DNA from: Botryosphaeria dothidea
Lineage: Eukaryota; Ascomycota; Dothideomycetes; Botryosphaeriales; Botryosphaeriaceae
Assembly (NCBI GenBank): GCA_011503125.2
Contig: WWBZ02000040.1
Span: 3,410,001-3,474,000, forward strand
Direction of reading: 5' to 3'
DNA: 64,000 bases
Shown: positions 3,902-57,350 of the stretch, piece by piece
Numbering within the stretch: position 1 is the stretch's first letter
Layout of the letters: the number at the start of each line of letters is the position of its first letter
Position numbers and translations under genes: made by a program
Notes under the pieces: model-generated
What the model was told of the DNA's origin: nothing
The model's input: the letters and a program-made list of their open reading frames with translations, nothing else
Databases searched by the model: none

Positions 3902-5585
3902 TCAGTACAGCCCTTGCGTATACAGCTGATCGTACTCGTAGCAGAGCACTCCTGCCTTGATGTCCATCACATCTCTCACGGTTATGTTCTCCGCATTAAC
4001 GTCCAAGGTCATCGGAAAGTCCAGCGTCACGTTGCCTCCCTGCGCATTGTCGTAATCCATCAGGTAAATCGGCCCCGAAATATCCGTCAGCCTCTTCTCG
4101 AGGTCTAGTGCTTGCCATGACCACCAGACACGGTCGAGGTTAGCATGGTGCATATAGAACTGCTTTTGTCAGTCACTTGCGTCCATCACCCACAGTTCGG
4201 ATTTACGTACGACAGGCTACGATATCAGTCAGTTGCATGCGCATGTAAAAGGTGGACGAACTCTTACGTCCGAGGGGCTGGCGTAGAGATCACCCATTTG
4301 CCCATAAGTACCGCCGATTCCATAATGCCCGCCGCCGTGAACGCCCGATGCGTCAAATGAAGGTCCTCCTTCTACTACTCTATCGAACCATCCGAAGTCG
4401 CTTTGGCTTAGAGTCAATTGGGTCTGATTCATTCCTAGGTATCTTCCGGCAAAGTACGGACTGAAGTCACGCGCCAAACACCGGGGATTGCCGCTGAGGT
4501 CGCTCAAAGGTCCCAAGTTCACAGTCAAGTTGACAAATGGCCCATCTTGGATGCACCCACCGCCGGTTCGGCCAGGAACAGAGAGAGGATCCGATATGTT
4601 GACGGGGATGAGCAACCCATTGCCCCCAAACCCGGATATCGGATCAAAAATCGGCGAGCTCACGAAGGCGCTGTCAGAAGTGACATCCAGCGTCCAGTCC
4701 CAGTATGGTTGAGCTCCGGTGTAGCCGCATTCCTCCCGAAGGCCCTTCTCGTAAACTGCAGTAAACCATCTGTGCCAGGCGAGGAAATGACCCTGCAGGT
4801 CTGCTGTTAGCACCCGGTCAAACCTGAAACTTGCCTTAGGCCGGCGATCTCTCTTCGCATCCGGGTCGATAAATGCCGAGGCGGCACGGCATTTCGATGT
4901 CGAGCATCGGAAAACACTGCGGACCCTTGCAACCACCAATATGAGACTGGGGTCTGGAGATCTTGGCACGTCACATGGATAGTCGAAGCATGCATTCTCA
5001 CGCGGATTTGCGTGGAGAAAAACCTTCAAATCCCTCTTGGAGTATGCACGGTGGTTCCGTCTCCGACCTCGGGGTTACATCGGAACCATCAAAGGGACGT
5101 ACTGACCGTGTAGTGAATATCGAAGGTCCATATTGACGTCAGCTCCATGACTCGACGCGGACGACTTTCCACTTACTTGTCGGATGTGCGTTGCTACGAG
5201 GTCTTCAAATCGTGAGCCGACACCGGGCGCAGTTGCCTTGGACGTGATCGGTGGCTTCGTCAAGAAGCATTGCACAGCGACCAGGTAGTCAAGCTTCTCG
5301 TTGATGCTGAGGGTGCGCCTGGAAGAGCTTGTTCAGTAATTTGATTTATCTAGAATTCGCCCCTGCAGACCTCCCTGCTCATGGACTAGGTCCCCAGGCC
5401 CTCCACGTCGGGAATCTTGAAACAACTTACCATTCCTTACGTACGATTGGGCTTTGGCACGCAGCGACGCCTCGAGCCTGTGGCGGCAGCGCTGCATTGC
5501 TGCCATGCGGAGCCGCGTCCGTCCCTGAAGCGAAGGCAAGAACCCCTAGAACGAGGACAGCGCCACAGTTCCTAAGCCTCGCCAT
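3902..5585 (-). CDS. Tyrosinase (type-3 copper monooxygenase)
   Basis: Common central domain of tyrosinase, which hydroxylates monophenols and oxidises diphenols. The predicted CDS joins 5585-5431, 5318-5177, 5142-5107, 4792-4268, 4216-4211 and 4159-3902, giving 373 residues. The N-terminus is a signal peptide (LRNCGAVLVLGVLAFASG), so it is probably secreted. Copper A histidines lie in DIHYTGHFLAWHRWF; copper B in GVHGGGHYG and, across two splice junctions, DPVFYMHHANLDRVWW. The Pro-Val of that last motif is supplied only by a 6-base exon at 4211-4216. Intron 5106-4793 is long (314 bases). The intron at 5176-5143 would be only 34 bases, so that join is the least sure part of the model. No C-terminal caddie domain follows, so it is a short form. 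Confidence 0.88.
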
Positions 5586-7006: not shown

Positions 7007-8475
7007 ATGGCTCCCAACGACTATGGTCCGCGTATACAGGTGACGGCCTTCACCCTTACTGCCGTCTCTACTGTCATCGTCAGCCTTAGGTATGTTTTCC
7101 TTCGAGGCACAGCTGCCATTAGCCAGGGGCTTATCGTGAACTCAGACTATACTGCAATGTCCACCTGTTGAAAAGGGCTGGGGTATCGGATCTCATGATG
7201 AGTGCAGCGATGGTACGTGACTCGCTCTTATTGAAAGGCGGCACTATCTTACTTATTTTCACAGGTAATGACATGGGGCATTGCTGTCATCAACCACTAC
7301 CAGGTCAAGTACGGCACTGGAAAGCACATCTATGACCAGAGTTCGGTAGGTAGCCATTCCACACCCGCTTATGGCGTGACTAATATTAAATAGTCTATGG
7401 ACGCCCTCGCGGGAACGCTCAAATCATGTAGGGCCCAAATGGATTTCGGTGAGGCCGCGTATGCTAACCATGAGCAGGGTATTCCTTCCAGATTGCCTAC
7501 CTCGTCGACCTCCTGCTCGTGAAACTCTCCATCCTCTTCTTCTACTGCGCCATCTGCGACCAGAAATGGTTCCGCACGGTCATCTACTCCATGATGGCTA
7601 TAGTCGGGAGCTTCACCATCGCCATGACCTTCGTCAACGCCTTCGAGTGCCCAAACCCCTCGGATGCCTTTACCGTTGAAATCATCATGGCTGGCCTTGG
7701 ATCATGCCGGGACCTACATTCAATGTACTTCGCGCAGGCTGGATTCAACATTGCGTCCGATGTGGTTATCATGTTGATCCCAGTTCCTCTGCTCGCACGC
7801 CTGCAGATGCCGAAGGCTAGACGTGTTGCGCTTTTCGGTATTTTTAGCGTCGGATTCGTTGCAGTCCTGGCATCCATCCTCCGTTTGTGGACGTTGACGA
7901 TTTGGGCGAGAACGAAGGATGTCCCTTACACTGGCGGTCCCATTCTCATCTGGACTCAGATCGAACTGAACTCCGCAATCATTTCCGCTTCGTTCCCCGC
8001 CATGAAGGCACTATTCGCGCATACTTTCTCGGAGAACCCGAGTACGCGGCAGTCCTCGAGTGGTGCGCGTTATTTCAAGTACGGGTACGGAGCCAACTCG
8101 GCAGAAAAGAGTAAAGGAATAAAGGTGAAGGCCAGCACAATTAGCCTGAAGACGCTTACCTTCATGAGGAGTGGATCGGGTGAGACGCGAGCATCTGCCA
8201 CGCTTCCACGCGGAGGAACCGGTCTGCGAAGTTTCGATGCAAGCCACAACAATAGTGACGAGGAGCTATTCTTCGACAATCCCGCTGGAGAACAAACTAT
8301 AATTGGGAGCGGAAAGAACTCGTCAGACGATAAAAGAGACAAGATCGCAACATTGAAGCCGCCCCAGCCTACGTTCCCAACACATCAAGGCATCATGAAG
8401 AGCCTGACGGTCGAACAAACCACGGAAGATTCGACTGGACGACAGCAGTATTACCGTTCGCATTACCTCCGATGA
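7007..8475 (+). CDS. Rhodopsin-domain integral membrane protein (Pth11-like/SAT4 family)
   Basis: Seven-helix membrane protein of the large fungal family that includes Pth11-like receptors; its ligand is unknown. The CDS joins 7007-7089, 7146-7212, 7265-7345, 7394-7427 and 7478-8475, giving 420 residues, with all five exons in phase. The split codon at 7427/7478 restores the family's conserved Trp in LKSWYSFQIAYLVDLLLVK. Further marks are the KLSILFFY helix, a Cys in the extracellular loop (FVNAFECPNPSD) paired with another before helix 5 (GLGSCRDLHSMYFAQAGFNI), and ILIWTQIELNSAIISASFPA in the last helix. The last 150 residues or so are a Ser/Thr-rich cytosolic tail. Family assignment is firm; the role is not known. 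Confidence 0.88.
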
Positions 8476-11400: not shown

Positions 11401-11903
11401 TCCCTTTCTCGCGGGGCATGTGCCGGGCAGGGATCATCCTTGGGTGAAGAAACATGACAGGCCATCACGGGGCAAGGTGCGTGGGGTAGATTGGCATGGC
11501 GGCGGTTTACGACGTATGGCGTGAGGGTCCCCCGGCCATTTCAGGCAAACATGCCTCATTAACTTGTGACGCCATTCCAACACCTGGGACACTTGGGGCA
11601 CCTGTACAACGTCAATTGCTGCACTGACGGCACTCGCACAACGTCCGTGGCAGGTGGGGATCAAAGTTTTGTAGTGCACCTGCACGAGTGGTCTTTGCCA
11701 ACGATGCTCCTCAGCATTCTCTTCGATCATCGTACGAGATCTTCGCGTGATGGAACGAAAGCGATAAAGTATACTATACACTCTTGTCGCCACTACCTGT
11801 GCGATGGATGTGCATAGGTCTAGATATACTCCAAGTTAACGGCAACCGGACCAGAAGCTTTCGCCGTTACTTCGGCCCTCCCGCTGTCAACGTGAACCTT
11901 GAG
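8476..11903. other. Gene-poor stretch, nothing supported
   Basis: About 3.4 kb without a recognisable gene. Open frames of 100-354 codons occur on both strands at 8840-10256, overlapping each other almost completely. Their products are Arg/Ala/Pro-rich with no domain. CT-rich runs near 10380-10400 look like promoter or untranslated sequence. A lineage-specific gene cannot be excluded without transcripts. Confidence 0.4.
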
Positions 11904-13426
11904 TTACCACTCCAACTCATTACGGGACCCCAGTTTTCCCAAGAGGTCCATGTCCGGCGCCCTTTTTGGTTTCAGGTAGCTCAATTGCTTGCAAACTGTG
12001 TCCCAATCCGTCAGCGGGCTAAACAAGGAGGGGAAAAGAAGAAAGAAAGAAACGACGGATGCAGGACAAAAGCCTATCACCCCTGACTATCCCTCGTGCA
12101 GACAGAAATAAACGGCGAGACTTACGCAGATCAGCTTGATTGTACATCTCACTAACGGTCGAATCCCTGCTTGCAGGCCATACTTTCTTGCCCCTCTTCC
12201 TCTCTTCCTTCAGGTGCGCAGTCAACTCATCCAATATTCCGACTTGGAGCCCAGCCGCCGTAGCGTCCAATGTCAGTGGTGCTGCCTTGGCGCCTGAAAG
12301 GATGGAGTAGACCTCGTCCTTGATGGCCTGAACAGCGGTATCGGCTTGCGCATTGTCACCTGGCCAGTTCAGGTAGACATTGCACGTGAACCTGGTATGG
12401 CTCGTAGAAGTGGGAGACGAGGATAAAGTGTACCATAGTCGACCACCTACTGCAACGTGGAGTGAGCTTAGGCCGTTTGAGTCGAGGATGTTGTGGGTGC
12501 CCGGGTTGCCGATATTGAATAAGAATGGCATTTTCGAAGCAAATTCATGCCATGCATTGGGTGAAATATTAGCTGCATAACCAACTGTTTCCATATAGTG
12601 CACTATTTAGTAAAGTTTTATCAGTCGAAGCCAGCGGGAAAGGCTTGAAGCGAGTAACGTTACCAGCCTGCTTCCAGTTCAAGTCCTCCTCGACTTCAAC
12701 CTGGGCGAGAGGGGCAGACCTCTCTGAGATACCCCAGCTCCTAGCCAAGATGTCTTTGGTCTTCACATCAGGAGAAGACACTTTATCAGTGCTAAGATTT
12801 ACGTAGACGAATCCTTGACGGGTGGTGTGGGTGTGAATCTCGAAGAGTCCGTTCTGACTTTTGTCGAAATTCTCAATATCTTCAAACGCAGGTGCTTTGA
12901 CAAGTCGTCCTCGTGTGTCATAGCTCCATCCATGGTAACGACATCCAAGTACCGTGGATGACCCGGACTTCTTCTTAGTAATGGTGTATGCCCGATGACG
13001 GCATACGTTGTGAAACCCCCGAATTACATGATCCTTTCCCAGAATCAGGAAGATGGGGAAGTTAGCCAGCTCGAACGTGTGGTAATCACCAGGTTTCGCG
13101 AACTGGCTCCGATGAGCTATGTATATCCATTGCTGGAAGTCTGTGAGAAAACACCTTATTGGTTGGTTCGAATTATTCGAAAAGCTTACCTTGCTAAACA
13201 GTGCACGCCGTTCTAGATTGAAGAGGCTCTCGCCAATCCACCAATCCTCAGGGAAATCAGATGCTCGATGTGCCTCAAGTATCATACTCTTGTTAGCACC
13301 AGGAGCAACGGATGGATAAGAGCCAGACTTCTTGGCGTAGCTCCGGACACCGATGACATATCTATATGCCAAAAAGGCAAGAACAGCAGCAAAGACAGAG
13401 AGCAGAATTTTCATGAGGTTAGCCAT
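11904..13426 (-). CDS. Rieske oxygenase-like protein with intact [2Fe-2S] domain but no catalytic-iron ligands
   Basis: Predicted CDS joins 13426-13190, 13132-12664, 12602-12126 and 11995-11904, 424 residues. Residues 1-27 form an N-terminal membrane anchor (LLSVFAAVLAFLAYRYVIGV). The segment NLERRALFSK-QWIYIAHRSQ opens the oxygenase fold. The Rieske centre is complete: C123-x-H125-x17-C143-x2-H146 (CRHRAY ... CRYHGWSYD). In the C-terminal domain the family's NWK landmark is present (231-233), but the usual E-C-x-H-C-x4-H that follows is replaced by YMETVGYAANISP, so both iron-binding histidines are gone. The late E-D-x-x-L-C motif carrying the iron Asp is also absent. It could therefore pass electrons but not bind the catalytic iron. 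Its same-strand neighbour at 14049-15097 shows the opposite loss. Intron 13189-13133 is 57 bases and stop-free. Confidence 0.85.
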
Positions 13427-14048
13427 GGCAGACTTCCGAAACCTCTGAAAGGCTTCTCCGGGTTTGGGAGTAGATGCCTGTGGTGGACTGGATATACAAT
13501 TCAGCCAAAACCAGGTGGCTCGTCCGACCGAAGAAATCGCATGATATCTCGTCTTATTTTTTCCACGCGATGTCCCAAATCGGTCATGCTTTCCCTCGAT
13601 GTCTGGGTTGAAGAGGGAGAGCAGTAGAGGTTGATGCACTGATAATGCGGGGATTGGATTGCACTTCCCTTTTTGGCACAGCGTCGAGATCCCGCATCCG
13701 CGGTCCCCCGGCGAATAGGCCAACGCAGACCAATCATCATCTGCGCTTATGCAGACGATCTTGTACAAGTGGGCACGGGATGAGGTGGATGGCTGAAGTG
13801 TTGGCAGGTGGTTATCTTTGGCCTGTTTCGTCGAACGTCATGCTGTCGGTACTGCCGGAATGGGTAAGCCTCGACCACTGAGCGCTCAATGCTATATGTC
13901 TGAGGCGGCAAAACTGATTCAGAGCTGCTGCAATTCTTGTTGAATGACTGTGTATTCATGTGAAGCATCAAGCAGATGATTGTACGAATCTATAATGACC
14001 AGATAAGAAATATACAAAGTTCTCGAAAGGAATGTCGCTGTGAAATGT

Positions 14049-15097
14049 TCAGTGGACTTCTACGGCCTGTTGATCGAGGCTGTGTTGCTCAAAGACCATT
14101 TCAAGAACGCGACCTTGGTAGTCTGGGAGAAAGGTCAGTTATTAGTCACGAAGGTGAACGAATGACTTACAAGCGACACCGTTCTCCTTGTTCGGATTCA
14201 AGATCCCTTCGGCATAGATTCCCCTCTCCAGGTTGGCTTGTGCTTTCTCGCAGAGCTCGTAGTCCTCGAGCGCAACTTGCCTGACGAATTTGAAGTATTC
14301 GTCAAACTTATCGCCTGTTTCCATGTGATAGTAGTCGAATTCCATGCGTGTGATGTTCGGATCCTCTGTAGGGCAGACGCGGAAAGAGCTCATTCCACCG
14401 CCGTACACATTGAGCGTGCAGTTTGGAAAGAAGTACAGGAACAATCCATCATTCGGCTTCTTTGGGTCTGCGATGTGCTGAGAAAAGTTTTGGAAGTTCT
14501 TCACCGAGTAAAAAGTTGGCGGGTAGTAGATGGAGAATGAGGGATGGGTGTACTGGCAATGAAGGCATTCCTGGTACCCATCGACCATCGTCTTCCAATT
14601 GAATCGACCTTCATACTTGAGACTGCGTCGGTGTGGCAGCTTGGTGAAGTCAACGCGGGAAATCAATGACTCCAGATCAGGGAAGAAGTCGTCGAACTCA
14701 GGTGCATCGTCAGATATGGTGGCAAAGAGCAACCCGGTGGAAGTGGTCTGGCTGCGCACTTCTTGATTCTTAGTGCCTGCAACGTCAGCGGGGTCGTTCG
14801 GCATGCTAAACTGACGGAAACAGACCGTCTCCTGTAGCAGAACTTTGAAGCTTTCGTCCTCCGCACGGGTCACATAAACGGGTACCTGTGCAACTTCATA
14901 CTCTACACGATCTTCATGAAAACGAGTGACTGGTCCAAGGAGATACCACGACTGCTAACGTCAATATTATACGAGAATTTATGTCTGAGCTGACTAGCAA
15001 GGCAGACCTTGAAGAACACAGCACGGCGTTCCAGATTGTAAAGCTCTTGGCTGGTGTACCATGAGGCAGGCAGAGTCCTTGGGAGTACGGTAGCCAT
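14049..15097 (-). CDS. Rieske oxygenase catalytic domain lacking the [2Fe-2S] domain
   Basis: Predicted CDS joins 15097-15008, 14951-14171 and 14122-14049, 314 residues against about 400-430 for the family. The start is family-like (LPASWYTSQELYNLERRAVF), and the text then follows the oxygenase fold (SWYLLGPVTRF). Where the Rieske domain of about 90 residues should lie, only residues 70-103 are found (QETVCFRQFSMPNDP...STG), with no CxH or CxxH motif in any frame. The catalytic domain is intact: NWKTMVDGYQECLHCQYTHP with iron ligands H161 and H166, and the third ligand D260 in ALEDYELCEKAQ. It must take electrons from another protein, and the gene downstream at 11904-13426 is the obvious candidate. 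An ATG at 15277 would add 60 residues with no family match. A 49-base intron-like stretch at 14782-14830 would break the frame and is not used. Confidence 0.83.
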
Positions 15098-15730
15098 TCC
15101 GACAGGATTGTTAGTGACGCGTGACGCAGTTGACAGATATGGTGGTGAATTAAAGGCAGACGTCTCCCGGTAATCTTGGATACCAGTCTTATAGAGGAAC
15201 CAGGAAAAGACGTCGTTGGCTTTGGTCAAAATCGGACAAGCAGTCCCATAGTCCGTATAGGCGTAAACAGCATGCATGCAGATCTATTGTCAGTGTACGT
15301 GTCCTGTCAGGGTATGCTCCAAGGCTGATAAGCGGGAAACGCTATGTCGAATTTAGGGAAGAAATCCAACCGCCGAGAACACCAAGAATGGACACGTAAT
15401 GAGAACGGAAGAACCATGTGGACGCGATCATTTGCTAGGCAAGATCGTGCGTTATAGTAGAAAGCTCCGTGAAGCTGTCGGACACTCCTTTTCTTTAATG
15501 CACTGATGCCGCTTACGGATGAGTCTGGGCGATGAGAGGAGTGCTCTCAAAGAAGCAAAGCGGCTGAGAAGTGAGTGAAAAAGGAGGGGAAGGCGGTGGG
15601 GGCAGGGCGTTCGTGCAGACGATTCGCCGGAAGCTGGGCAGGGATGACGCGCGCGCGCCCGACGCGCCCGGAAGCTGCGCGCGCAATTGGAAGGAGAGCT
15701 TAGCTACACCTGCATTCCCGCATCATCGCC

Positions 15731-17712
15731 ATGGGCATCATCGGGTAAGTTTCCCAGCTGGATTCGCCTGCTGCCTTCATCTGCTCACAGTCCACAGTCT
15801 CTGGGACATATTGGGCGATGGTGAGATCACCTCCATTGCCCAACTCGCCTCCGACCACTTCCAACGAACCGGCCGCCCGCTTCGCGTTGCCGTCGATCAG
15901 GCTGGATGGCGCTTCTCCAACCTGAATTCCCACCAAGTCCGCGCCATAAGAGATAGTAATACGCCATGTCTCATCCCTTCGTAAATCGGAACACTCGAGT
16001 TGACACAGTGCGCTTGCAGAGGTGCCAGACGCCAACCCGTAGAAAAGGCAATCCTGTATCGAATCTTCAAGCTTTTGAAGCTCAACATCCGCCTCTTTTT
16101 CATATTCGATGGCTCGAAAAGGCCATGGAAGAAAGGGAAACCAGCTGGCCAGATCAAATACAAGGACATTGATACCCTCCGCCGACTCCTCGATTGCCTT
16201 CGGGTCCCGCACCACGAAGCCCCGGCTGAAGCAGAGGCGGAATGCGCGCGGCTACAACAGGCAGGCATTGTAGATGCTGTGTGGTCAGAGGACAGCGATA
16301 GTCTCATGTTCGGCTGCACTTTTCTCATTCGTACTCTTCGCGAAAAGAACAAGAAAAGCGACACCCATGTCAGGGTGCACCGAGCTCGCGATATATGGGA
16401 GAGAAAGCAACTCGATCGGGAAGGACTCGTCCTGTTTGCCATGCTAAGTGGCGGAGACTACGATCCTGTTGGAGTCAGAGGTTGTGGTGCCCAGCAGGCC
16501 TGGAGAATCGCAAAACGTGGCTTGGGAAAGACACTCTGTCAGCTTCCGGATAGAGAACTGCACTCCTTCAGAGACCTTCTATATCCTCTTTTTCACGGGC
16601 GGGATGTAGAAATACCATTCGACTGGCCTCGGGCTAGACACCTGGACAATTACCGGAATCCCAAGGTTTCTACTCAGGAAGAGCTTGATGATCTACAATG
16701 CCGCAAGCCCTGGGACCTTCCCATTCACCAATCCAAGCTCAGAGTCTTTCTCAGAGAGCAATTTCAAATCTTGACGAAATATTTCTTGAAGCACATCGCG
16801 CCGAGTCTGTTAGTTCAAAAGCTGTGCAACAAATCGGGCGACGAAGGCAATTCTTACTCAGTCGAGATTGTTCGCTCACGGAAACAGAACACAGCCAACA
16901 GTTCCGAGGAGTCTTTCGAGAGAAAGATCAAGTTTTTACCTCACACTGTAGTCGACTTCGATATTACTGAACAACCAGAGACTGAAGACTGGTCGAAGCT
17001 GGCGACCAAAGCTGACGGCGAATTCAACCCATGCGCCAAGCTTGATTGTGAAATTCTCGATGCAGTTCTCAGACGTAGTCTCCCTGCGTCTGTATTTGAG
17101 GCACCGTCTGCGAAATCTCCTAGGAAAAGAAAGCGCACATCAAGGGAGTCTGTTGGCCACGATGCCGAAGACTCCGATGTAATAATCACAGGTTCATCAA
17201 CTTCCATGGCGCATCAATCCACGGCAAACACACCGAGGAAACGTGCAAGGCCAACAACGAAGAGCTATCCTCGAGCTGAAGAGCCAGACAGTGGTTCGGA
17301 TGGAATTGACGATATTGTGGAAAGGATGTTGCACGTTCGTCAACGTACCAGTGGACGCAGAAATAATGGTCGTGGTAATGGCCGCGGACAAGCAAGCCCT
17401 GATGAACGACATGATATATCGGCAATGCCCCAAAATCGTATATCTACTAATATCGTCGATCTTGGATCTGAAAGCGAGGATGAAGGACTCCCTTCTCCGT
17501 CCGAACTTCTCCCACGGTCCGAGACTACGGTATCTTGTTCCGGGTCTTACCGCAGACGACCCGAGTCACTCGGTGCAGTCAGCAACGTCGTCTCTGCGCC
17601 GGATTTTGCGGATGACGGCCTTCGATTAGCGCGCCGATTGCAAGCCACTCATGGTACTGGATTAGACTCAAGATCGGCAACATCCGTCGCCACCCGTGAA
17701 CCTGCTCGATAA
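15731..17712 (+). CDS. GEN1/Yen1-like Holliday-junction resolvase (XPG family)
   Basis: Rad2/XPG-family structure-specific nuclease of the GEN1 class, acting on four-way DNA junctions in the nucleus. Exons 15731-15744, 15798-15955 and 16022-17712 give 620 residues. The N-terminal domain begins MGIIGLWDILGDGE; catalytic acids can be seen in VAVDQAGW, LFFIFDGS, APAEAEAECARL, WSEDSDSLMFG and LSGGDYD, the full XPG set. The GEN1 type is indicated by HEAPAEAEAE and by GVRGCG in the helix-hairpin-helix. The last 250 residues are acidic/basic and disordered with nuclear-localisation-like clusters (PRKRKRTS). The third exon's acceptor (CAGAG at 16021) was chosen because the alternative gives an immediate stop. 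The true C-terminus may lie further on, ending at 17951 with IECIDLTSD, a SUMO-interaction-like motif, but I could not find a clean splice. Confidence 0.85.
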
Positions 17713-20488: not shown

Positions 20489-22576
20489 ATGTGGTTGTCG
20501 GCATCGTTATCTTTGCTCGTGGCCGCCGTGGCCTGGGCAAAGGAGCCTTACCTCAAGCTTCACGACGACACATTCATTCCTAATGCTGTCTTGCGAGTGA
20601 CCGAGGGAAGTGCCTGCCTTGGCTGTATTGATAGGAACTCGGTCATCGTCAATGGCACCGTTCCTGGACCAGCGCTGCATTTTGAGTCTGGCAGCCGTGT
20701 ATGGGTTCGTGTTTACAATGACATGCCGGACAAGAATCTCACAATGGTATGAACCGACGATATGTCCGACCCGATCCGGAGCGACTGACTTCGTGGACTA
20801 CAGCATTGGCACGGCCTAACCATGGCAGCCGCCCCATTCGCCGACGGTTCTGTTGCAGCCAGCCAGTGGGCGATCGCGCCGTTGAAATTCTTTGACTACG
20901 AGCTCTGTCTGTTCGACATCGAGCCGGGAACGTACTTCTACCACTCCCATGTCGGCTTCCAAGCCATGACTGCCGCGGGACCCTTGCTCATCACCAACAA
21001 GCCCGGTGAGGAGCCGCCTTATCAGTATGATGAAGAGCAGACGGTCTTCTTCTCCGACCTGTACAATACCACCGACCATGACCTCGAATCCGGTCTTGTG
21101 GCAAGCCCTTTCAAATGGAGCGGTGAGGTAGGTGATGTCCTCGTCAACGGCCATGGTATCTCCCAGTATCCAGCGACGAACAACGAAGATAGCTGTAGTC
21201 TTGCGCAAGTCTCCGTGGAAGCCGGAAAGACCTACCGTCTACGCTTTATCGGTGCCACTGCCATTTCTTTCCTGACCGTTGGCATCGAAGAGCATAACCT
21301 CACCATCATCGAGGCGGATGGCCATTACACGGAGGCTTTGGAAGTCGACTTCCTCCAGATTGGCGGCGGCCAGCGCTACTCGGCCCTCCTGAAGACGTTG
21401 TCCTGCGAGGAGCTCGCATCCCAAGGCGCAGGCCGCAGCCAATTCTACATGCAACTCGAGACCCGCGACCGCCCCAAGAACCTCACCACCTACGCCATCC
21501 TGGACTACGGCGACAGCTGCAGCAGCACCGTCAGCGTCGACGCCAGCATCGGCTCCGGCCCACCATCATCCGGCTCTCCGTCGTCGACTCCGCCCTCCAG
21601 TGCTCCACACGGCGACAAAAGCCCGCTCTCCCGCAAGACGCCGCCCAAGACGCCGCCGCTGAGCCTTCCGCCCATCGTCCCAGGCTGGCTCGACTACGAC
21701 CTGCGGCCGCTCGTGCCCGCGGCCGACTTCCCCACGGCCGACGAGGTGACGCGCACGGTGGTGATGGACATCTTCCAGCTGGGCGAGGCCGGGTTCGTCA
21801 AGTGGGCGCAGAACAACCTGTCGTGGTACGAGCACACGCCGGTCGTGCCATACCTCGTCGCGCTCTACACCAACAGTACGCAGTTCCTGCCCGACTACGA
21901 CTACGCGGTGGCCACGGGGACGGGGCACGACGAGCGCGTGGGCGCGTGGCCGGCGAAGATGGGCGAGGTGCTGGAGATTGTGATTGTGAACACGGGGTCG
22001 TACAGCGGCGGGATGGACGTGCATCCGATGCACATGCATGGGGCGCATTACTTCTACCTGGGGAGCGGGAAGGGGAAGTATGATCGCGAGGAGAACGAGA
22101 GGAAGCTTGCGGGCAGGACGCCGGTGACGAGGGATACGACGATGTTGTATCGGTACAGCGAGAAGGAGGAGGTGCATAAGGAGCACAGTTGGATCGCGTG
22201 GAGGATCAGGGTGACGCAACCGGGAGTGTGGATGCTGCATTGTCATACGCTGCAGCATATGATTATGGGTGGGTGCTGCTTGCTTTTTTCCCTCTCACCT
22301 GCTTTTGCTTTCTTCCTCCTCTTTTATTTCTTTCCTGGAGGAACGTGAAGAAGCGGGGCGGCCGAAGGAGGACTAAGCTGACATGATTTGACAGGAATGC
22401 AAACGGTCTGGGTGTTTGGAAATTCCACGGATATACTCACGCTTCCGCTACCATTGGTGGAGGGGTATCTGCTATTTGGCGGGGATGTTTACGGTGATGA
22501 CGAACATGCGCCGCAGGTCGTTCACTTCTTCGATCCGGATGACGATGACGACGAAAACGATAGCGACGGGAAATAG
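20489..22576 (+). CDS. Secreted multicopper oxidase (ascorbate oxidase/laccase-like)
   Basis: Exons 20489-20746, 20804-22268 and 22395-22576 give 634 residues. A signal peptide (LSASLSLLVAAVAWA) leads the protein. All copper ligands are visible: HWHGL across the first splice, YFYHSHVGF, HPMHMHGAHYF, and LHCHTLQHMIM with the type-1 Cys and axial Met. Three cupredoxin domains are evident, with a proline/serine-rich insertion at about residues 360-400. The fungal ascorbate-oxidase-like clade fits best (start TFIPNAVLRVTEG, DxCSSTVS), so a phenol or ascorbate-like substrate outside the cell is likely; laccase or ferroxidase use cannot be excluded. The tail ends in an unusual acidic run (DPDDDDDENDSDGK). 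The ATG was chosen 18 bases into the open frame because upstream codons are not ATG. Confidence 0.9.
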
Positions 22577-26677: not shown

Positions 26678-28408
26678 TTAGAGAAGCTTGAAGTAACCCG
26701 TGCAAAGCCCATTGCTCGTGAAAATCCCTTCCGGGTCTATCGTCTTCTGTATCTCTTTCAACCTCTCCACATTCTCCGCTTTGTACCCGGCAAACACATC
26801 ATCGAACTCGGAACACGCATAGTTCATGTAGACGTATTTATTGAGTACTCCGAGTTCGGCGGCGGATTCCGTGAACCTTCTCTGTAATCTCTCGCGAAAC
26901 TCATACGCTGCGTTATCCTCCGCAGAATCAGTCCAACTCGTAGCCACGTTGAGGACTAGTGATAATTAGTAACCGATACAAAATCAAAAACGGCAGGCTC
27001 TGGGTTAAGCTCACGTGTTAATGGGCCGTCGGACTCGATTCCAATCGCATTGCCACCATGGTTGTTCATAGCGTTAATGGAGGCCCTCTGAATTGGTTGA
27101 AACGTCATTGCTGGACAGGCAGTTTTCGCTTTGACCTTAAGAATTTCGATTTCCTCCTTGAAGATCTGAACCATACGTCTCTCCTGCTCCTTTGACGGCG
27201 CGAAGGTTACTGAGGACATCCAATTGCTAGAAAGCGCAAGAGTCAGTTGACTATAGTTTCCAGGTATACCATATGCATCGCTTTCTGGATTTTGACATAC
27301 CGTTGTCCAGCTGGGGTGCCTGCCTTCAACTCCATGCTGAAGTTGCTAACGTATTCTGTTCTCATTGTGCTACCGAGCGCCTCAATCTTGTCGATTTCGC
27401 TATACACCGACGGACTCTCAGTGATATCCTTCGAGTACATCAGTTGGGAAAGAGCCAAAGTGGCATTTTTGGCCGGCATCCAAATGTAGCCGGTCCAGAA
27501 TGCAATATTAGGATCATCACTCATGGTCAAGTCGTAGGAGGCATCGATGAGGGCATCCATCTTGTCCGGAGTGTAGAACTTCTGTCCGCCGTAAATCTTG
27601 CCTTGGCTGACGGTAGCAAGAGTAAAGTGTGTGACGATGCCGAAATTATTGCCGCCGCCGCCGCGGAGGGCGAAGAAGAGGTCCGGGTTGCAATATTCGT
27701 TGGCGGTGACTATGGTGGTGTTTGGCAGGACCACCTCCATTTCCAGAATATTGTCCGTTGCCCAGCCATGCCGAGCAGACAGAAAGCTGATTCCTCCTCC
27801 AGTGAGCAGACCTCCCACACCGACATCGTCAACCCTCCCTCCTACAACAGCAAGGTTTTCTTTTTCCAAAGCCCGATAGACGTCGCCCCATACGGCGCCC
27901 GTGCCCACGCGCGTCTGAGTTTTGTCGTCGGAAAGTTCGACCTGGTTGATGCGTCTAAGATCGACGGTGACGCCGCCGACTGAATTGGAGGCACCTTTGC
28001 TGGAACTGTGGCCGCCGCTCTTGATAGCAAAGGTGCACCAGTTGTTGATCAGAATGCCGAGCACAGTGGCGACTTCTTCAGTTGATTTGGGCTCGATGCG
28101 GCAGGCGCGCTGGGAATCCTGCTGCTTTGCATCCCAGACGGAAAAGTTCTTGTCGGCATGCGGGTAATGCAGCTGTGATCCAAACTCGCTGGCCAGGGAG
28201 GCGCACTGTTGCACGTCGATCAGATGTGAGTGCTTGTTTTAAGCATAACGTCAAAACAGGCAAGAATTACCGCTGCATCACAGCCGCCGCTACTCAGGTC
28301 CCTGACAGTCGGAATGGCAAAGAATTGGGCCGAGGCCGCTTGGCAGAGAAAAGAAATAATAAGAGCGATCAAGGGGAGAAGCGGGAGCGAGGGAGCGAGG
28401 GCAGCCAT
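26678..28408 (-). CDS. Secreted FAD-linked oxidoreductase (BBE-like)
   Basis: Berberine-bridge-enzyme-like flavoprotein. Exons 28408-28271, 28205-27301, 27226-27015 and 26955-26678 give 510 residues, all in phase. A signal peptide (LPLIALIISFLCQAASA) precedes the FAD-binding PCMH domain, where the FAD-linking His sits in IKSGGHSSS. GVGGLLTGGGISFLS is the second flavin loop; the Cys used by bicovalent members is absent there, so single covalent attachment is likely. LRGGGGNNFGIVTHF follows. The C-terminal domain ends with YACSEFDDVFAGYKAENVERL and a DPEGIF motif. It lies beside the polyketide synthase, so a tailoring oxidation in that pathway is plausible but only inferred. No defects seen, unlike the synthase. 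Confidence 0.88.
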
Positions 28409-30501: not shown

Positions 30502-33500
30502 CTACTGCTGCACCCCGTCGATCAACTTACTCTTCCCCGCCAAATCCGCTGCCAGCGCCCTCATGGGCACATTCGCCATGATCTCAAATACGCTCACCTC
30601 TACACTCATCTCCTTGGCGATCCAGTTCCTGACCTCGACTGCGACCAGCGAGTCGACGCCATACGCACTCAATGGCTTATTTGCATCAATATCGCTAGCC
30701 GGCACCATCATCAATTTAGCCAGACGCTCGACCATGCTGCGCGTGATGAGTTCGACTGCTCCACCGATATCGCCACCCACACGCGCCAACTCATCACGCA
30801 GTGAGATGGAGCTGCCGCTGGCAGTGCTGGACCCAGCGGCGCGAGCCAGTAACGGCGTGAATTTGCCATCGGCGATCCAGTACCAGGATTCCGAGTGCTC
30901 GTTGATGGGTAGGCCGCACATAATTTGCGCCGGGTGTGGGGTCGATGACATGGCAGTGGCAAGAAGGCCATGGAGGTCGGAGTTGTGCATGACTTTGAGA
31001 CCTACAGAGAAAGAGAAGATGGTCAGGGAAAGGTAGATTCAGGGGAAAGGAGATCGGGTCGGTGTCACTCACCCATGCTCTTAATATGATCGACGTACTC
31101 ATCATGCTCGGCCACGAATCCGACACTGAGTAAGTATCCGATGTCGATGGCCATAGCGCGCAGGCCCAGAGAGCGGCGGTAACTGGCAAAATAATCCTGG
31201 AAAATGTTGCCCGCACCATAATTGCCTTGGCCACGGTGGCCCATAACGCCGGCAAGGGAGCTTAGCATGACGAAGAAGTCGAGATTCTTAGGCAGCATGT
31301 CGTGCAGGTTCCAGGCTCCGTGCACCTTGGGCCCAACAGTGATGCGCAGGTGGTCCGCGCTCATGGCATCAAAAAGCGTATCTCTGAGTACCATTGCACC
31401 TGTCACACAGCCGCAAACAGGAGGCAGAGAAGAGAGCTGCTCCAACACGGATGCCAAGGACTCCCGGCTCCCCACGTCGCAGTCGAAAGCAAGTGCGTTG
31501 GTGCCGTAAGTTTTCCGGAGGTTGGCGATGTAAGAAATGTTCTCCTCACCGGATGCGGCGGAGCGTGACAGGAAGACGAGGTTCTGCGCGCCCTTCTCAG
31601 CTAGCCAGCGGCCGATCTCACGACAGATGCCACCCAAACCGCCTGCCAGAACGTATGTTGCGTCTGGCCGGATCTGCACCTGCGGCGTACGCGGAACTGC
31701 AGGTACAAGATCGGAGTCGTCGACGCGGACGACGATCTTGCCCGTGTGCTTGCCCGTCTGCATGTACCGGAACGCCTTCTCGACCTCAGCGAAAGTGAAA
31801 AGCTGAACGGGCTTCACGGGCTTGATGGAGCCATCGTTGATCAGCTTCGCCACGTCTTGGAACAGGGTCACGGCACGTGGCGTGGGGTTGTTCTCGAAGT
31901 CGATGAGGTTTACTCCGCAGTAGCTCTTGTTCTCCAAAAATGGCATCATGTCGAGGCCGGTGTTGCTGAACAAATCAGCCTTTCCAATTTCGAGGAAGCG
32001 CCCGAACTTGGCTAGACAGTGCCAGCTCAGACGCAGCGCCTCGCCTGCCAGTGATTTCAGCACGACATCGACTCCAGCACCATTCGTCATGCGTTCGATG
32101 CCCTTAGCGAAGCTGAGGTCGCGGCTGCTGAAAATGTGGTCGGCAGGTATGCCATACTCACGCATTATCAGCTCTTTCTTCTCCGCAGAACCCACCGTGG
32201 CATAAATCTCTGCACCAATGTGCTGAGCTACTGCGATGGCGGCCTGTCCCACTCCACCGGCGGCAGCGTGGATCAAGATCGATTCGCCCTTGACGAGCCT
32301 ACCAACAGTAACGAGGGCATAGTAAGCTGTCAGGTAGATCAGAGGCATAGAAGCCGCATCCTCAAAGCTCATACCATCGGGCATAGGAATGACGCCCTGA
32401 ACGGGGAAGCGCACGTACGTGGCGAACGTATCGCAAGAAGACGTGCAGACACGGTCTCCTGGCCGGACCGTCATCACAGCCGCACCAACCCGCGTAACGA
32501 GGCCAGAAACGTCCACGCCTAGCTTCTACTCGTTAAGGTTTCCCATGGCGACGAGAACGTCCTTGAAGTTCAGCCCGACAGCCTTCACCTCGATTTCGAT
32601 CCAGTCCTCCGGCAAGGGCTTGTAGTACGTCTCATCCTCCTCCCAGCGGAACGTGTCCAGCAGCCCAGGCGTCTTGATCGTGAGCTTAAGCGGACGACCG
32701 CAACCTCTGAACGACACATCCTCTGGGTCGTCCTTGGCCTCGTACGTCCGCAGCGACGCGTCGACCGCGGGCGCCTTCTCGACGCGCGGCACGTAGACGC
32801 TGCCGCGGCGGGCCGCGTACTCGTGGTCCTGAACACCATCGCCCCGGCTGTGGCTGACAGCCACCTCCAAGACGGCGGCGGCGCTCGCATGGATATCCAT
32901 GCCATCGTCGTCCGCGGGCTCGATGTCGAGCGTGGCCAGCGACACGCCTGCGTTCTCGTTGCGGATGGCCCGCGAGAGGCCGACCATCAGCGCGCCGTTG
33001 TGCGGTAGCGGGCACTCCATCGCCGCGCCGCCCATCACCCACAGCGTGCCGCCTGCGTTCAGGACTAGCGCGCGCAGCCGCTCCCAGTCCTCGTCGCTGA
33101 TTCTGGCGAGCAGTGGCTGCTCCCACTCGGTTAGCGCGATGCAGTACTTGCCCCTGATGTCTTCCACGGCGAAAGAAGACCACCGCAGCACGTCGATCTC
33201 GTCGTATCCGCGCGCCCGGAACGCCTTCTTGATAGTGGCACTCAGATTATCGGTCGCGGGCGTACCGCTGCTGATGATGGCGAAGGCGGAAGCGGGCTCG
33301 GACTGGGAGGCGAGGGGTTTGGTCGAGACGAGCAGGCTGACGGGCTCCTGGCTGCCGTCGCGATCGCCACGCACGTCGAGGTCGACGCCGGAGAGGTCGG
33401 CGAGCTTGAGCGCGGCGTCCCATTCTTGGACGTCGAGGAGGGGACCGCCTTTGCGGCCGTCGGATTCGCCGAGCCACCTGGAGGATGTTAGTGATGAGGG

Positions 33501-36500
33501 TTTAGGGGGAGGAGGGGGAGGAGGGGGAGGTGATGTTTTGTGAGGTCCATCCGAGAAGTATTGCAAGAGTAAGTGTGTAAAGACGCATGGGTGATCGAAG
33601 CTTTCATTTGGACGCGGATGTGGTTAATCTTATCGAACACACAACCGGTCGAACGCTCCAACCCCATATGCGTGTCTGCGCTTACTGTTGCAATAGACTT
33701 CGAGATCGACCTCGCAAGCGGAAAGTATACTTACCATCCCGGCAACGGTCCCATGATGAAACCGCAGAAAATGCGCTTTATGGTAACCTCAGACAGAACA
33801 AGCTTGCCGCCAGGCTTGAGCAACGCGCGGCAGTGCGCCAGCGTCTCCTGGATGCTCTTCGTGGCGTGCAGCACGTTGGCGCAAACGATCAGGTCGAAGC
33901 TCTCGGGCTCGAAGCCCTGGTCCAGCGGATCGTCCTCGATGTTGCACGTTCCGAACTCCATGATCGAAGCATCCTTGGAGAAGCGCTCGGCCGCCTTCGC
34001 CAAGAAACCGGGGCTGATGTCCGTGAAGAAGTAGCGCGCCGTCTTCGTTGCGCAGCCGCTCCAGGACATGGTAGGTCGTGCCGCCGGTGCCGGCGCCGAT
34101 TTCCAGGATCGAGAGGCCGGGCTTCTTGTCGGCGACGAGGCCGACGTACTCGGCGACGTTGGTGTTGAACGAGGTGCCGAAGGCGCCCCGGTAGAAGGCG
34201 TACAGCAAGTCCCCCTCGAGCATGGCCTGCAGCGGTTCGATCTCATGCTTAAAGATGCGACCCAGGCTCAGGCCGATACGGTCCGTCGTATGCAGCGTGA
34301 TGTCGCCCGAGTTGGAGGTGACGATGCGCTTCCTCGCGGCCACCAGCTCCGCTTCGATCTGCGCCTTGTCGTTTGGCAGCGGCGGGAAGGCTACCAGCCG
34401 CTCGATCATCCACTCGTAGAACAGCTTGAAGAAGCCGTCCTGGGGCACGTACGCCTTGCCCTCCTCGCTCGCCAGCCAGTCCAACGTGCGCTGGATGTAC
34501 ACGAGGCAGACGTACTCGAGTTTGTCGAGCACCAAGTCATCATCCGCGTTGGGCAGCGTGCGCGCGTAGACGAGCTCCTTGATCTTGGCCGGCGATATCA
34601 GGTCGGCGTCCTCGTGCCAGACCTGCTCGAAACATTGGGCGCGGCCCTCGCCTATCCCCTTCTGGCTGTCGCTGGCACCCACGGACGCCAGACCCAGTCC
34701 TTCCATGATGATCTGCGGGGACTGCAAGTCATCCTCGGCAGCGATGGTGATGGAAGACATCCAGGTGGTGTAGCTTGTCTTCTGCGCAGTCGAGTAGCCA
34801 TGCAGCCTGGTTCCAGCGGTCGACGGCATGCTCGCCGACACATAGATGCGGTCGAACGAAAAGGGCACGACGGCCTCGTTCAGCGACTGCTCGGCGCCGC
34901 TGATGGACGGGAACAGCAGGTGCAGGACCGAGTCCAGTGTCGCTGGGTGGACGACGCAGGGGTACTCGTAGCTCGACGGCATGACGGCCCTTGTGTCTGG
35001 CACGCTGATGACGCCGTAACTAGCACTTTCTCCCGCGTACAGCTCCGTCATGTTCCTGAACGTCTTGCCGTAGTGCATCCCGATCGTCTCGACCGTGTCG
35101 TACAGGAAGCCCCGCGCCGGCTTCTGGCACTTCTCCCTGGCCTCGGCAAAAGCGTCGCGGCACCGTTGGTTCTCGAGCGAAAGTTCCTCCTGCATGGCCG
35201 CGGACGACAGGGAGGACTTGTATGTCACCGAGACCAGGCCTCTGCAGTACGCGGTCCATTGCTTCGAATCTACGGACCACAATGAGACGGCGAACTCGTA
35301 CAGGCTCGCGGACGGTGCCGCCTTGGTTTCCGTCCTGCGCGGGTGGAACTGGACCATCACCTCGACGCCTTTGTCGTCTTCCGGCACCCGCAGAGCCGTC
35401 GTGATTGACACGTCGCGTAGCTCGTACCCGAGCACCTCCTCGTTGGCGTCGGCCAGCTGCCGCGCGCCCTCGATAGCCATGACGACCATGCCCGCGCCCG
35501 GGTAGAGGATATCGCCCTAGACGCGGTGCTCGCGGATCCACGGGCTCTCGCCGCAGCGCAGGAAGTTGCGCCACACGGGCTCGGGCGAGTCGGGCACGCG
35601 GTACCCGAGCAGGTCCAGCCGCGGCGTCGGGCGTAGGCGGTGCTCGCGGCTGAGGTACGACTCCTCCCAGAAGCTGAGCGCGTGGTTCCACGCGTAGGGG
35701 GGCAGGTCGACCAGCATGGACGACGCGTCGGCGGGCGTCTCGTTGACCGCGCTCAGGTCGAGCTAGCAGCCCTTCCAGTATAGCTCGCCCGCGCAGGCGA
35801 GCGCGGTTTGCACGCCGTCGTGGTTGCGGCGGAGCACGGTGGCGTAGGACAGGTCGGTGAATTGTCTTCGTTCTTGAAGACGTCGAGCACGTAGCTGCGC
35901 AACGCAGAGTGCGGTCCCACCTCGACGAAGACGCTGGCGAAGGCGGTCCGGCGGTCGTGCGAACGCTTCTGCTCCTTGGAGTGGTGCAGCAGCGCGGAGA
36001 GGGCGCCGGCGAAGTTGACGGGCGAGACGAGGTTGTCGACCCAGTACGAGGGGCCCAGTTTCTCTGGCTGGATGAGCGCCCCCGTGACGGAGGAGAACAT
36101 GGGAATGTTCTGCGTACAGTCGACAGTGCCGACACCAGCCAGGGCAGTCTCGTATGCTTCGCGGATGACCTCCACGTGCGGCGAGTGGTATGCAACCTCC
36201 ACCTTCAGCTTCGTGCTGTTGACCTGCTCCACAGTGAGAATATCCTGCAGCTCATCGACGGCAGCTTCATCACCAGAGACAGTGCAGGCCTTGGGGCTGT
36301 TGAAGGCAGCCACAACAGCCTTGCCCGCAGTCAGACCGGCGAGCCGCTCTTTCAGAGACTCACCACTGGCACCGACAGCCATCATCGCGCCCTTGCCGTT
36401 CCTCTCCGCAACCGTCCCCGCAAACCGGCCCCTGAGCCATGCGATCTTGACCGCAGCTGCCCTCGTGATCGCGCCCGCGCAGTACGCCGCCGCGATCTCG

Positions 36501-38852
36501 CCGCTCGAATGTCCGACCACGGCAGCCGGCCGCACGCCCCACGCCACAAGCAGGTCCGCCAGCGCGACCTGCAGCGCCGTGCACGCCGGCTGGCTGAACT
36601 CGGCCAGCACCAGCCTGCTCTCGCCCTCCGGCCGGCCCAGCTCCTCTGCCAGGCTCCACGCGCAGCCGAGCGCGCGCAGCGTCGCGTCCGCGGCGGCCAG
36701 GCTCGCGCGGAAGGGCCCGTAGATCGAGAGGCCCCTGCCCATGGCGAACCACTGCGCGCCCTGCCCCGTGAAGACGAAGGCCGGGCGCGGCGCGTTGGCG
36801 TAGTCGGACGAGCGCGAGGCGGCTGGGCAGGAGGCGAGGCTGGCGACGAGGTCGGGGATGGAGGAGGTGATGGCGAAGGATTTCCAGGGGTGGGTGGTGC
36901 GCTTGGTGGAGAGGGTGTAGGCGAGGTTCGAGAGGAGGGAAGGTGTGTCGGGCTGGTCGTTGTGCGATTTGGAGGAGAGGTAGGTTTGGAGCTGTTGGGT
37001 GGTTCGTTGGATGCCGTCTTGGTCGTAGGAGGAGAGGACGAAGAGCTTGGGCTTTGCGGCGGTGGGCGTGGTGCCGTTGCCGTTAGTGTGGCCGTTGGTC
37101 AGGCAAGGTAGCTTTGGCTCGATCACAGTCGCGTGCCTTCCCTTCAGTCCCATCCTCTCCAGGTAATGAGCCGCATCTTCCAGCACAACGTGGGCGTTTG
37201 CGCCTCCAAATCCGAACGAGTTGATACTGGCCCGGCGGGGGCCGTCATGTGGCCATGCGGAGAGCTCAAGCGGGATCTTGACGTTCTCCGGGAGGTTGAT
37301 CTGGGGGTTTAGTTTCTCGAACCTTTGAAGTATTGTCAGCCAAGTAAGTTTTAGTACTACGATATAGCACCAACTCACCATAGGTTCTGCGGGATCAACC
37401 CTCCCTCCACGACCAACGCGGCTTTGATGATCCCCGCGACGCCAGAGGCGCCCTCAAGATGGCCAATGTTCGTCTTGACCGACCCGACGTACAAATCACT
37501 CGTCCTGTCCTTCCCGACAGTCTCGAGAATGGCGCTCGCCTCGAGCGGGTCGTCCGCCTGCGTGCCCGTGCCGTGCGCCTCGACGTACCCCGTCTCGGCG
37601 GGATCCACGCCCGCCTGCGCGTACGCGGTGCGGATGAGCTCCCTCTGCGCGGCGCTGCTCGGCAGGCTGATGCCGGGCGTCCGGCCGTCCTCGTTCGTCG
37701 CGCTCGCCAGCACGACGGCGCGCACCGTGTCACCGTCCCTCAGCGCGGCGTTGAGCGGCTTGAGCACGGTGATGCCGATGCCCTCGCCGCGCGAGAAGCC
37801 GTTGGCTTTGGCGTCCCACATCTGGCACTTGCCGTCGGGCGACAGGATCTTGGCCGCCCCCAGCAGGATGCTCATGTCCGGCCCGAACATCAGGTTGGCG
37901 CCGCCGACGACGGACATGGAGGCTTCGCCGGCGCGCAGGCTCTGGCAGGCGAGGTGGAAGGCCGTGAGGCTGGAGGAGCAGGCCGTGTCGATGGTCATGC
38001 TGGGGCCTTTGAGGTCGTAGAACCAGGAGAGGCGGTTCGATGCTAGGGAGGAGGAGAGGCCGGTTGCGTCTGTGATGGGGGTATGTCAGGTCGTTTGCTA
38101 GGCGGTTTGGTGGTGGAGATGATGACTTACGGTATATTGAAGGTCCTTCGTTGTCACGGACGCTGTGGTAAGCTTGTTAGTGGTTGCTACTCTGCTGGGG
38201 GAAAGTAGGTGTTCACTTCAAGCTGCTGAAGTCATTCGTGAATGAGCCAATGTAGACTGAGGTCTTGGAGCCTTTTACGGCATCCAAGGTCAATCCAGCT
38301 GGGGGAAGTAATGATCAGTATTACGAATTTTTCTCGAGAAATCCATAGGACATACCGTTCTCGAATCCCTCGTAAGTCGTTTCGAGCAGCATTCGGTGCA
38401 TCGGGTCCATTGCCTTGGCTTCCTTGGGCGTAATGGAGAAGAAAGGTGCATCGAAGACCTTGAAGTCTTGCTTCAAGAAGTGAGCATGGCTGATTGGTGT
38501 TAGCTAGACTTGTTCAGGTGAGAATATTCATGCATGCAAGGCTGGAGCATTCGACGAGACGTAAGTGTTCAGGAAGATTGATTACATCCGCAGCCAGACG
38601 AGTGCTTCAACTTCCCATGTCAACAACGGTGGCCTACCGAGGCTGTATACTCCCTAATCTCTCGGGGTCGGGATGATAGAAGCCGTCAATATTGTAGCGG
38701 TCCTTGGGGATTTCTGTCCGTGCCGAGCGAGCGTCTAGCAGCATCTGCTAGAACTTCTCTGAGTCGGCGCCATCGCCGGGCGCTCTGAGAGCAATGCCGA
38801 TGATGGCAATCGGCATTGAAGAGGGGGTGTCTTGAGTGATGATTCCAGGCAT
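30502..38852 (-). pseudogene. Highly reducing polyketide synthase, inactivated
   Basis: Iterative type I HR-PKS. Domains in order: KS (38.8-37.0 kb; [26 protein letters not shown]), AT (36.8-35.9; VVGHSSGEIAAAYCAG), DH (35.7-34.7; WIREHRV), C-methyltransferase (34.3-33.7; [18 protein letters not shown]), ER (32.6-31.7; [18 protein letters not shown]), KR (31.7-31.1; [10 protein letters not shown]) and ACP ([10 protein letters not shown]) at the C-terminus, with no thioesterase. Several KS-region introns and the intron after PLPGW (about 33727-33484) are canonical. The frame is broken by in-frame TAG codons at 38748-38750, 35763-35765, 35517-35519 and 32526-32528, and by single-base frameshifts near 35858 (after FKNED) and near 34050 (inside the methyltransferase). 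Each TAG stands where relatives would have Gln or Trp, so CAG or TGG has mutated. Catalytic residues otherwise remain, so inactivation is recent. Confidence 0.9.
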
Positions 38853-50100: not shown

Positions 50101-50366
50101 TTGCCGATAGCAATGATCTTTGGGCTAAAGAAGCCGAGTTCCTTGTTATAAGGCGTGTGCATGATTTCTTCGCCTGATGGAGTATAGAATCCTGGCTTGT
50201 TTGATCCATAGAAGAAGAGCTGATTGCCTTTCCTTTCATAGAAGACCCGAGAGGAAATTGTGCTAATTGGCAAATCGGGAGTGTAGAGGACATGCTGGAT
50301 AGTCCTCGTGATCTTGTCGTTCTTGGAATCTAGGTAGGTAAGTTGAATTGTTCCTCTGCCAAGCAC
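47148..50366 (-). pseudogene. Copia pol (integrase, reverse transcriptase, RNase H), broken
   Basis: Reading leftwards: integrase 50366-49488 with LLHQRMGHASFQ, the zinc-binding Cys pair CEICALTK, and the acidic core FHIDTVQ ... RIDDGREF ... YTPEQNGKAEKAN. A linker follows with MPSKRVVIRSS. Reverse transcriptase at 48.3-47.6 kb has DISSAFINGKI, ALYGLKQAPRIW and IIIYVDNLILI (YVDD in relatives). RNase H at 47.4-47.2 kb has STKAEYVAMTLAAKEALWIK. Stops at several points, mostly TAG, split it into pieces. Confidence 0.9.
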
Positions 50367-50578
50367 TCGGATTAGTCCTCCTCCGGTATAGATCTCACTT
50401 AGTAGGGTATCTTAGAGGTCTAAGAATGCTTCTCGATTGTTGCAGCAGTGATAGTAGGCTCTAGTGTCAACAATAAAGTGTTCACGGAACTATTCCTTGG
50501 ACTTTATGGGAACTTTGAGAGGTAACTGCATGATTGCCATATGATTCAAGGCTCCTGATTTCGCATCGGACTTCGCAT

Positions 50579-55375: not shown

Positions 55376-55472
55376 CTTTGACCACCATCCTTGCAAGGAG
55401 AGGGACCGTTCAGGAAGAACGAGTTATTAGGTTAAGTATCACCCCGCCTAACGCGTTTAGGGAAAGCATACA

Positions 55473-57302: not shown

Positions 57303-57350
57303 ACGGCCCTACGGCAATGGGACCAACCCAGGGGCCACAGTCTAGGTCCC
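57293..57350 (+). promoter_or_regulatory. Programmed -1 frameshift signal between gag and pol
   Basis: Heptamer A AAA AAC at 57293-57299 sits in the gag frame immediately before the stop; slipping -1 enters the pol frame (Leu-Asp-Gly-Pro...). After a 5-base spacer a pseudoknot can form: stem 1 GGCCCT (57305-57310) with AGGGGCC (57330-57336, one bulge), and stem 2 GGGACC (57319-57324) with GGTCCC (57345-57350). Confidence 0.8.

Follow-up and report, generated by a model that had tools for sequence, protein, structure and literature searches.

Whether one Rieske oxygenase can be permanently divided between two neighbouring genes is the question raised by a locus of the ascomycete Botryosphaeria dothidea (GenBank assembly GCA_011503125.2, contig WWBZ02000040.1, positions 3,410,001 to 3,474,000), a stretch of 64,000 nucleotides hereafter called the window. 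Two adjacent genes of the window, gene 1 and gene 2, resemble Rieske oxygenases, and an original prediction made from the letters alone had claimed that gene 1 keeps the [2Fe-2S] site and gene 2 the catalytic iron. In the ring of an ordinary Rieske oxygenase each chain is electron donor and electron acceptor at once. Neither of the two genes has both metal sites in one chain, and only the pair together has the full set. Here we read the pair as one Rieske oxygenase divided between two homologous subunits, likely membrane-anchored and acting on a substrate of the cationic-amine class, a reading to which we assign a probability of roughly 80%.

Complementary metal sites and their conservation

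Both genes lie on the minus strand where they had been predicted, with gene 2 upstream of gene 1 in head to tail order (Table 1). Gene 1 carries the four cluster ligands C123, H125, C143 and H146 as claimed, the iron-binding stretch with its histidines and the Glu-Asp (ED) motif is indeed lost, and PF00355 (Rieske domain) is the sole Pfam domain over the cut-off. Its splicing into four exons, with the end ...SRNELEW falling exactly at 11904, was fixed by fit to the relative P0121. Gene 2 is matched by PF00848 (catalytic domain) only. The earlier model of gene 2, with 314 amino acids, was reproduced exactly and has H161, H166 and D260 as stated; the protein probably has 295 amino acids, because 19 residues, encoded by the stretch 14825-14769, are absent from the closest relative (P0001) and two test strings from these residues matched no fetched protein. 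These 57 nucleotides are probably an in-frame intron that was read through in the earlier model. The original description of gene 2 as short by about the length of a Rieske domain was overstated: in the alignment the cluster-binding part, about 60 residues, is gone, and the basal beta-strands of the domain are kept.

The closest solved sequence for both genes is that of the carnitine monooxygenase CntA (6Y8J). In this enzyme, cluster and iron are 44 Å apart within a chain and 12.2 Å apart across the subunit interface, which is bridged by E205, a residue described as essential for intersubunit electron transfer (PMC7948474). The equivalent of E205 in gene 2 is E158, three residues before the first iron histidine.

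The complementary losses are real and fixed in the families examined. With gene 2 as query, 337 proteins matched at E <= 0.001, and gene 1 as query yielded 1547; the best 120 of each, 10 of those for gene 1 being fused gene models, are the listed relatives to which the counts below refer. A third search used a Leotiomycete (Xylogone) gene 1 as query. All 120 listed gene-2 relatives have HxxxxH and the bridging glutamate and none has the Rieske motif, which is present in 120/120 listed gene-1 relatives. When the third search is added, the Rieske motif is found in 175/175 unfused gene-1-like proteins, and the iron motif ExxHxxxxH is absent from 165 of the 167 that could be judged, that is, those that extend 60 residues or more beyond the NWK landmark. 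The two exceptions, P0294 and P0310, are ordinary full-length fungal oxygenases with both metal sites in one chain; another gene-1-like protein, P0262, has HxxxxH without the glutamate and away from the iron site. Across the alignments, E158, H161, H166 and D260 of gene 2 are invariant in 121/121 rows, and so are the four cluster ligands of gene 1 (121/121). We interpret the fixed losses and invariant ligands of both families as a mark of selection and not of decay.

The two families also differ at their termini. A hydrophobic N-terminal segment was detected by hydropathy test in 128 of the 136 gene-1 relatives with enough N-terminus, against 1/120 listed gene-2 relatives, which agrees with the membrane anchor originally proposed for gene 1. 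A C-terminal [LIM]-[DES]-[WF] signal steers cytosolic iron-sulfur insertion, and choline monooxygenase is named among its bearers (PMC10623007). The strict form of this cytosolic iron-sulfur assembly (CIA) tripeptide terminates 58/120 listed gene-1 relatives and a terminal tryptophan 95/120 (fused and truncated rows counted); the corresponding figures for the listed gene-2 relatives are 0/120 and 1/120. Since the tripeptide occurs in gene-1 relatives and in none of the listed gene-2 relatives, the putative cluster-loading tag is confined to the cluster-bearing partner.

The original prediction had named a hidden exon that restores CxH/CxxH to gene 2 or HxxxxH to gene 1 as a finding that would speak against it. 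No unbroken motif of this kind was present in six frames over 11800-16500, a scan that an intron-split motif would escape. CxH(10-25)CxxH gave a single match in the six frames, in gene 1 from 13003 downward, and ExxHxxxxH a single match on the minus strand, in gene 2 from 14570 downward; the remaining two ExxHxxxxH matches, located at 14382 and at 16077, belong to the plus strand.

Genomic neighbourhood and ancestry of the pair

Linkage in other fungi was assessed among the listed matches by pairing those to gene 1 and gene 2 whose contigs have an equal size in base pairs (bp). Both types were found together on 29 species-labelled contigs, all agreeing in genus, and on 3 others; the shared contigs include one of 11.6 kb (Calycina) and one of 4.7 kb, and there was no near-miss within 5 bp of contig size among the species-labelled matches. 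Locus tags are consecutive in 6/6 pairs for which the tags of both genes could be read: Rasamsonia (5421/5422), Aspergillus niger (003061/003062), Polytolypa (06583/06584), Monascus (001499/001500), Oleoguttula (004149/004150) and Neocucurbitaria (062750/062760, numbered in tens). Sixteen gene models fuse the two, gene 2 coming first and gene 1 second, with both motifs in 11/16; we read these models mostly as merged neighbours rather than real fusions. Among the 15 listed gene-2 labels that we take to be Leotiomycetes, 8 have gene 1 on the same contig, including Xylogone, the query. Co-occurrence as neighbours, which had been suggested as a check of the pair, is supported among the listed matches by shared contigs, consecutive tags and fused models. 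Two A. niger annotations (P0147 and P0148) join gene 1 to a membrane protein of the Mpv17/PMP22 type, which in that genome is presumably the neighbour on the other side of gene 1.

The same genome holds an ordinary full-length Rieske oxygenase (C3:109299-110651, L026; start codon assumed), here called C3, which has both metal sites and ends LVW. For the phylogenetic analysis a bacterial comparison set of 80 loci was used, from which 25 full-length proteins passed the filter; 25 entered the Rieske-half tree and 14 the catalytic-half tree and the trees for the approximately unbiased (AU) test. The Rieske-half tree contained 8 gene-1 rows, the catalytic-half tree 16 gene-2 rows and the shared-column trees 16 gene-1 rows. 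In the Rieske-half tree gene 1 forms one group (support 94/89) beside the full-length fungal proteins P0310 and P0294 (98/91), with C3 next after these and the bacteria apart (100/99). Gene 2 likewise stands beside P0310 and P0294 in the catalytic-half tree (95/94), with the bacteria apart (100/97); this tree carries a program warning that long branches (C3 and several bacteria) meet, a possible false joining. By these trees gene 1 and gene 2 each belong in the fungal Rieske oxygenase clade. One shared-column tree grouped gene 2 with C3, both being long branches.

In the alignment a phase-0 intron follows the same lysine in both genes (K30 of gene 2, K79 of gene 1), a position which C3 reads through. 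Because this intron is shared by the pair and missing in C3, descent of both genes from one intron-bearing ancestor is favoured. The C-terminal tail of full-length oxygenases is kept in gene 1 (mean 30% identity to P0310) and absent in gene 2 (10%).

Table 1. Coordinates of the two genes and their features in the window (position 1 is its first letter)
Feature	Position	Strand	Remarks
Gene 1, Rieske (electron-transfer) subunit	11904..13426	-	424 amino acids; exons 13426-13190, 13132-12664, 12602-12126, 11995-11904
C-terminal Leu-Glu-Trp, gene 1	11907..11915	-	fits the [LIM]-[DES]-[WF] cytosolic iron-sulfur targeting tripeptide
CRHRAYTITKKKSGSSTVLGCRYH of gene 1	12932..13003	-	[2Fe-2S] ligands C123, H125, C143, H146
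Hydrophobic N-terminal segment, gene 1, likely membrane anchor	13352..13414	-	sequence and hydropathy test in relatives
Intergenic gap, gene 2 / gene 1	13427..14048		622 bp
Gene 2, catalytic-iron subunit	14049..15097	-	314 amino acids as read; exons 15097-15008, 14951-14171, 14122-14049
ECLHCQYTH of gene 2	14544..14570	-	bridging glutamate E158 and iron ligands H161, H166
Putative 57-nucleotide in-frame intron, gene 2	14769..14825	-	inside exon 14951-14171

The nearest recognised flanking open reading frames among those tested encode a fungal rhodopsin-domain protein (7474-8475, plus strand) and an XPG-type nuclease (15985-17712, plus). Several oxidative enzymes occur in the same window, namely open reading frames resembling a tyrosinase (4229-5074, minus), a multicopper oxidase (20789-22348, plus) and a flavin adenine dinucleotide (FAD)-binding oxidase (27243-28238, minus). 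Pieces of a polyketide synthase lie at 31065-38085 on the minus strand, with acyl transferase, dehydratase, zinc-dehydrogenase-like (enoyl reductase) and ketoreductase domains; within them, 37375-38085 resembles a ketosynthase by reading of the sequence. Retrotransposon-like open reading frames were recognised in the same manner at 47148-50411 (copia-like, minus) and 55461-62233 (gypsy-like, plus).

Proposed division of labour and its rivals

In the model that we infer, which covers the physical complex, its electron flow, the route of cluster loading, the membrane site and the substrate, gene 1 would sit anchored at the membrane and receive its [2Fe-2S] cluster from the cytosolic iron-sulfur assembly system. 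Electrons would pass from a reductase using NAD(P)H (reduced nicotinamide adenine dinucleotide or its phosphate) to gene 1 and cross the subunit interface by way of the bridging glutamate E158 of gene 2. They would then reach the mononuclear iron, for which H161, H166 and D260 of the same chain are the ligands and at which O2 would be activated. Each chain would have one role only, so the productive interface would be that of gene 1 to gene 2 alone. Flow from gene 1 to gene 2 is the most economical reading, since the bridging glutamate and the iron ligands remain in gene 2 and the cluster ligands in gene 1. The group Va quaternary-ammonium Rieske oxygenases are defined by Tyr or Phe where CntA has Y203 (PMC7948474). 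As 120/120 listed gene-2 relatives have an aromatic residue there (Y in 107, F in 13), a quaternary or similar cationic amine, choline- or carnitine-like, is a reasonable first guess at the substrate class, no more.

A number of points weigh against this reading or against the linkage on which it draws. Two AlphaFold models of naturally fused proteins reached a predicted template modelling score (pTM) of 0.48 and 0.55, their halves did not dock with confidence, and the HxxxxH loop had a predicted local distance difference test score (pLDDT) below 50. Fold searches bore mainly on the gene-1 half; in one of them several top matches also took in residues at the beginning of the gene-2 half. Of the obligate hetero-oligomer in the original prediction, the complementary losses and the neighbourhood are supported, and the physical association and the mutual dependence are putative. 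A three-membered ring is unable to alternate two subunits evenly, which leaves the stoichiometry without explanation, and Pfam recognised no reductase in eight other open reading frames of the window. The C-terminus of 26/120 listed gene-1 relatives is LAW, which is outside the strict CIA motif. A sister clade of gene 1 and gene 2 is absent from the best shared-column trees, yet the AU test did not reject it (p 0.129 and 0.106); of the duplication with reciprocal loss that had been proposed, the complementary losses and the membership in the fungal clade stand, and the sister relation is neither found in the best trees nor rejected. As for linkage, 28 of the 43 species labels common to both lists share a contig size and 15 differ, perhaps because the matches come from different assemblies or, in the case of three labels given as 'sp.', from different species. 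Among the 29 pairs is one whose members bear two species names of the same genus (A. rambellii and A. ochraceoroseus). The contig size of the Calycina pair, 11568 bp, recurs in the gene-1 match P0296, so that equal size is no proof. For 23 gene-2 genus labels the listed matches include no gene 1, which indicates neither presence nor absence.

The lack of confident docking in the natural fusions would suit a looser arrangement, in which gene 1 serves as an all-purpose Rieske carrier at the membrane and gene 2 draws electrons from it transiently, in the way of a ferredoxin, with no stable hetero-oligomer and with the genes linked and co-inherited. The seemingly lower conservation of gene 1, with identities of 35-45% for most listed gene-1 relatives against 59-70% for most listed gene-2 relatives, points the same way, and we regard such an arrangement as unlikely. 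The name 'Bet v1-like protein', given in some databases to gene-2 relatives, and the missing cluster ligands of gene 2 could instead suggest that its iron serves a role foreign to Rieske oxygenases, such as helix-grip lipid or ligand binding or hydrolysis, gene 1 having a separate task. However, two histidines, one aspartate and a bridging glutamate invariant in every aligned row are beyond the needs of ligand binding alone, and the cluster protein that gene 2 misses is encoded by the adjoining gene; a role of this kind seems very improbable.

The chance that the pair is an artefact of annotation or assembly, or a couple of pseudogenes in decay, is close to negligible. The assembly does have redundant contigs: contig C78 (G000:C78) is identical letter for letter to window positions 1-25673 (25,673 bases compared), a repeat of the same stretch rather than a diverged gene copy. 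Against an artefact stand the open frames, the same losses in all listed gene-2 relatives and in nearly all judgeable gene-1-like proteins, and the six-frame scan, which revealed no hidden unbroken motif. Pseudogenes and a single-assembly artefact are ruled out, as far as sequence can do so, by losses that are fixed in the listed families.

If the division of one oxygenase between gene 1 and gene 2 is true, the fungi offer a natural pair with one role per chain and with it a direct test of cross-subunit electron transfer, the roles of giving and receiving electrons not being separately variable in ordinary Rieske rings. Two families of many moulds, now misnamed 'choline monooxygenase, chloroplastic', 'Bet v1-like protein' or 'iron-sulfur cluster-binding protein', would gain a function as well.

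Comparison with known systems

CntA has the Rieske, iron, bridging-glutamate and Y203 positions that are here divided between gene 1 and gene 2; it differs in being a bacterial homotrimer with everything in one chain. The ordinary fungal oxygenases P0310, P0294 and C3 have the C-terminal tail of the gene 1 type and both metal sites in one chain; in the domain trees, P0310 and P0294 stand closest to either gene.

The caffeine N7-demethylase NdmC, which had been put forward as a precedent, is described as an oxygenase without a Rieske cluster, thought to use the cluster on its reductase (PMC4408171). It is a fair precedent, being an oxygenase whose cluster is on another protein. In the NdmCDE system, however, the reductase NdmD carries the Rieske domain as a fusion, and the NdmE protein, resembling a glutathione S-transferase (GST), is needed; the fungal pair has its Rieske domain on an oxygenase paralogue that has degenerated, with no reductase domain there by Pfam. 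NdmA/NdmB are given as an alpha3alpha'3 assembly in a 2025 review (PMC12445004).

Closer than NdmC is the chlorophyllide a oxygenase of Micromonas pusilla (MpCAO), likewise a two-chain Rieske oxygenase; the fungal pair, likened to it by description only, consists of two homologous chains with complementary metal sites. Reportedly the Rieske site is retained by one MpCAO chain and the iron site by its partner (Kunugi 2013). The enzyme has two polypeptide chains, for which either a heterodimer or a trimer of dimers is proposed, and it is active in vitro with a reductase, VanB having been used (PMC9615114). MpCAO belongs to a green alga and has a chlorophyll substrate; the fungal pair is set apart from it by its place among fungal enzymes resembling CntA and choline monooxygenase, its likely membrane anchor and its CIA tag.

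No fungal two-chain Rieske oxygenase was found among the listed hits of searches for fungal or heteromeric Rieske oxygenases in the open literature, a body with most subscription journals outside its scope. We consider it somewhat probable that the pair represents a two-subunit Rieske oxygenase occurring throughout the Pezizomycotina, made of tandem paralogues with permanently divided metal sites and one-way electron flow, in which a membrane-tethered, CIA-matured donor would serve a cluster-free iron chain, and that it is independent of the algal and bacterial splits. Split Rieske oxygenases are already known from NdmCDE and Micromonas, and to these the fungal pair adds a new variant.

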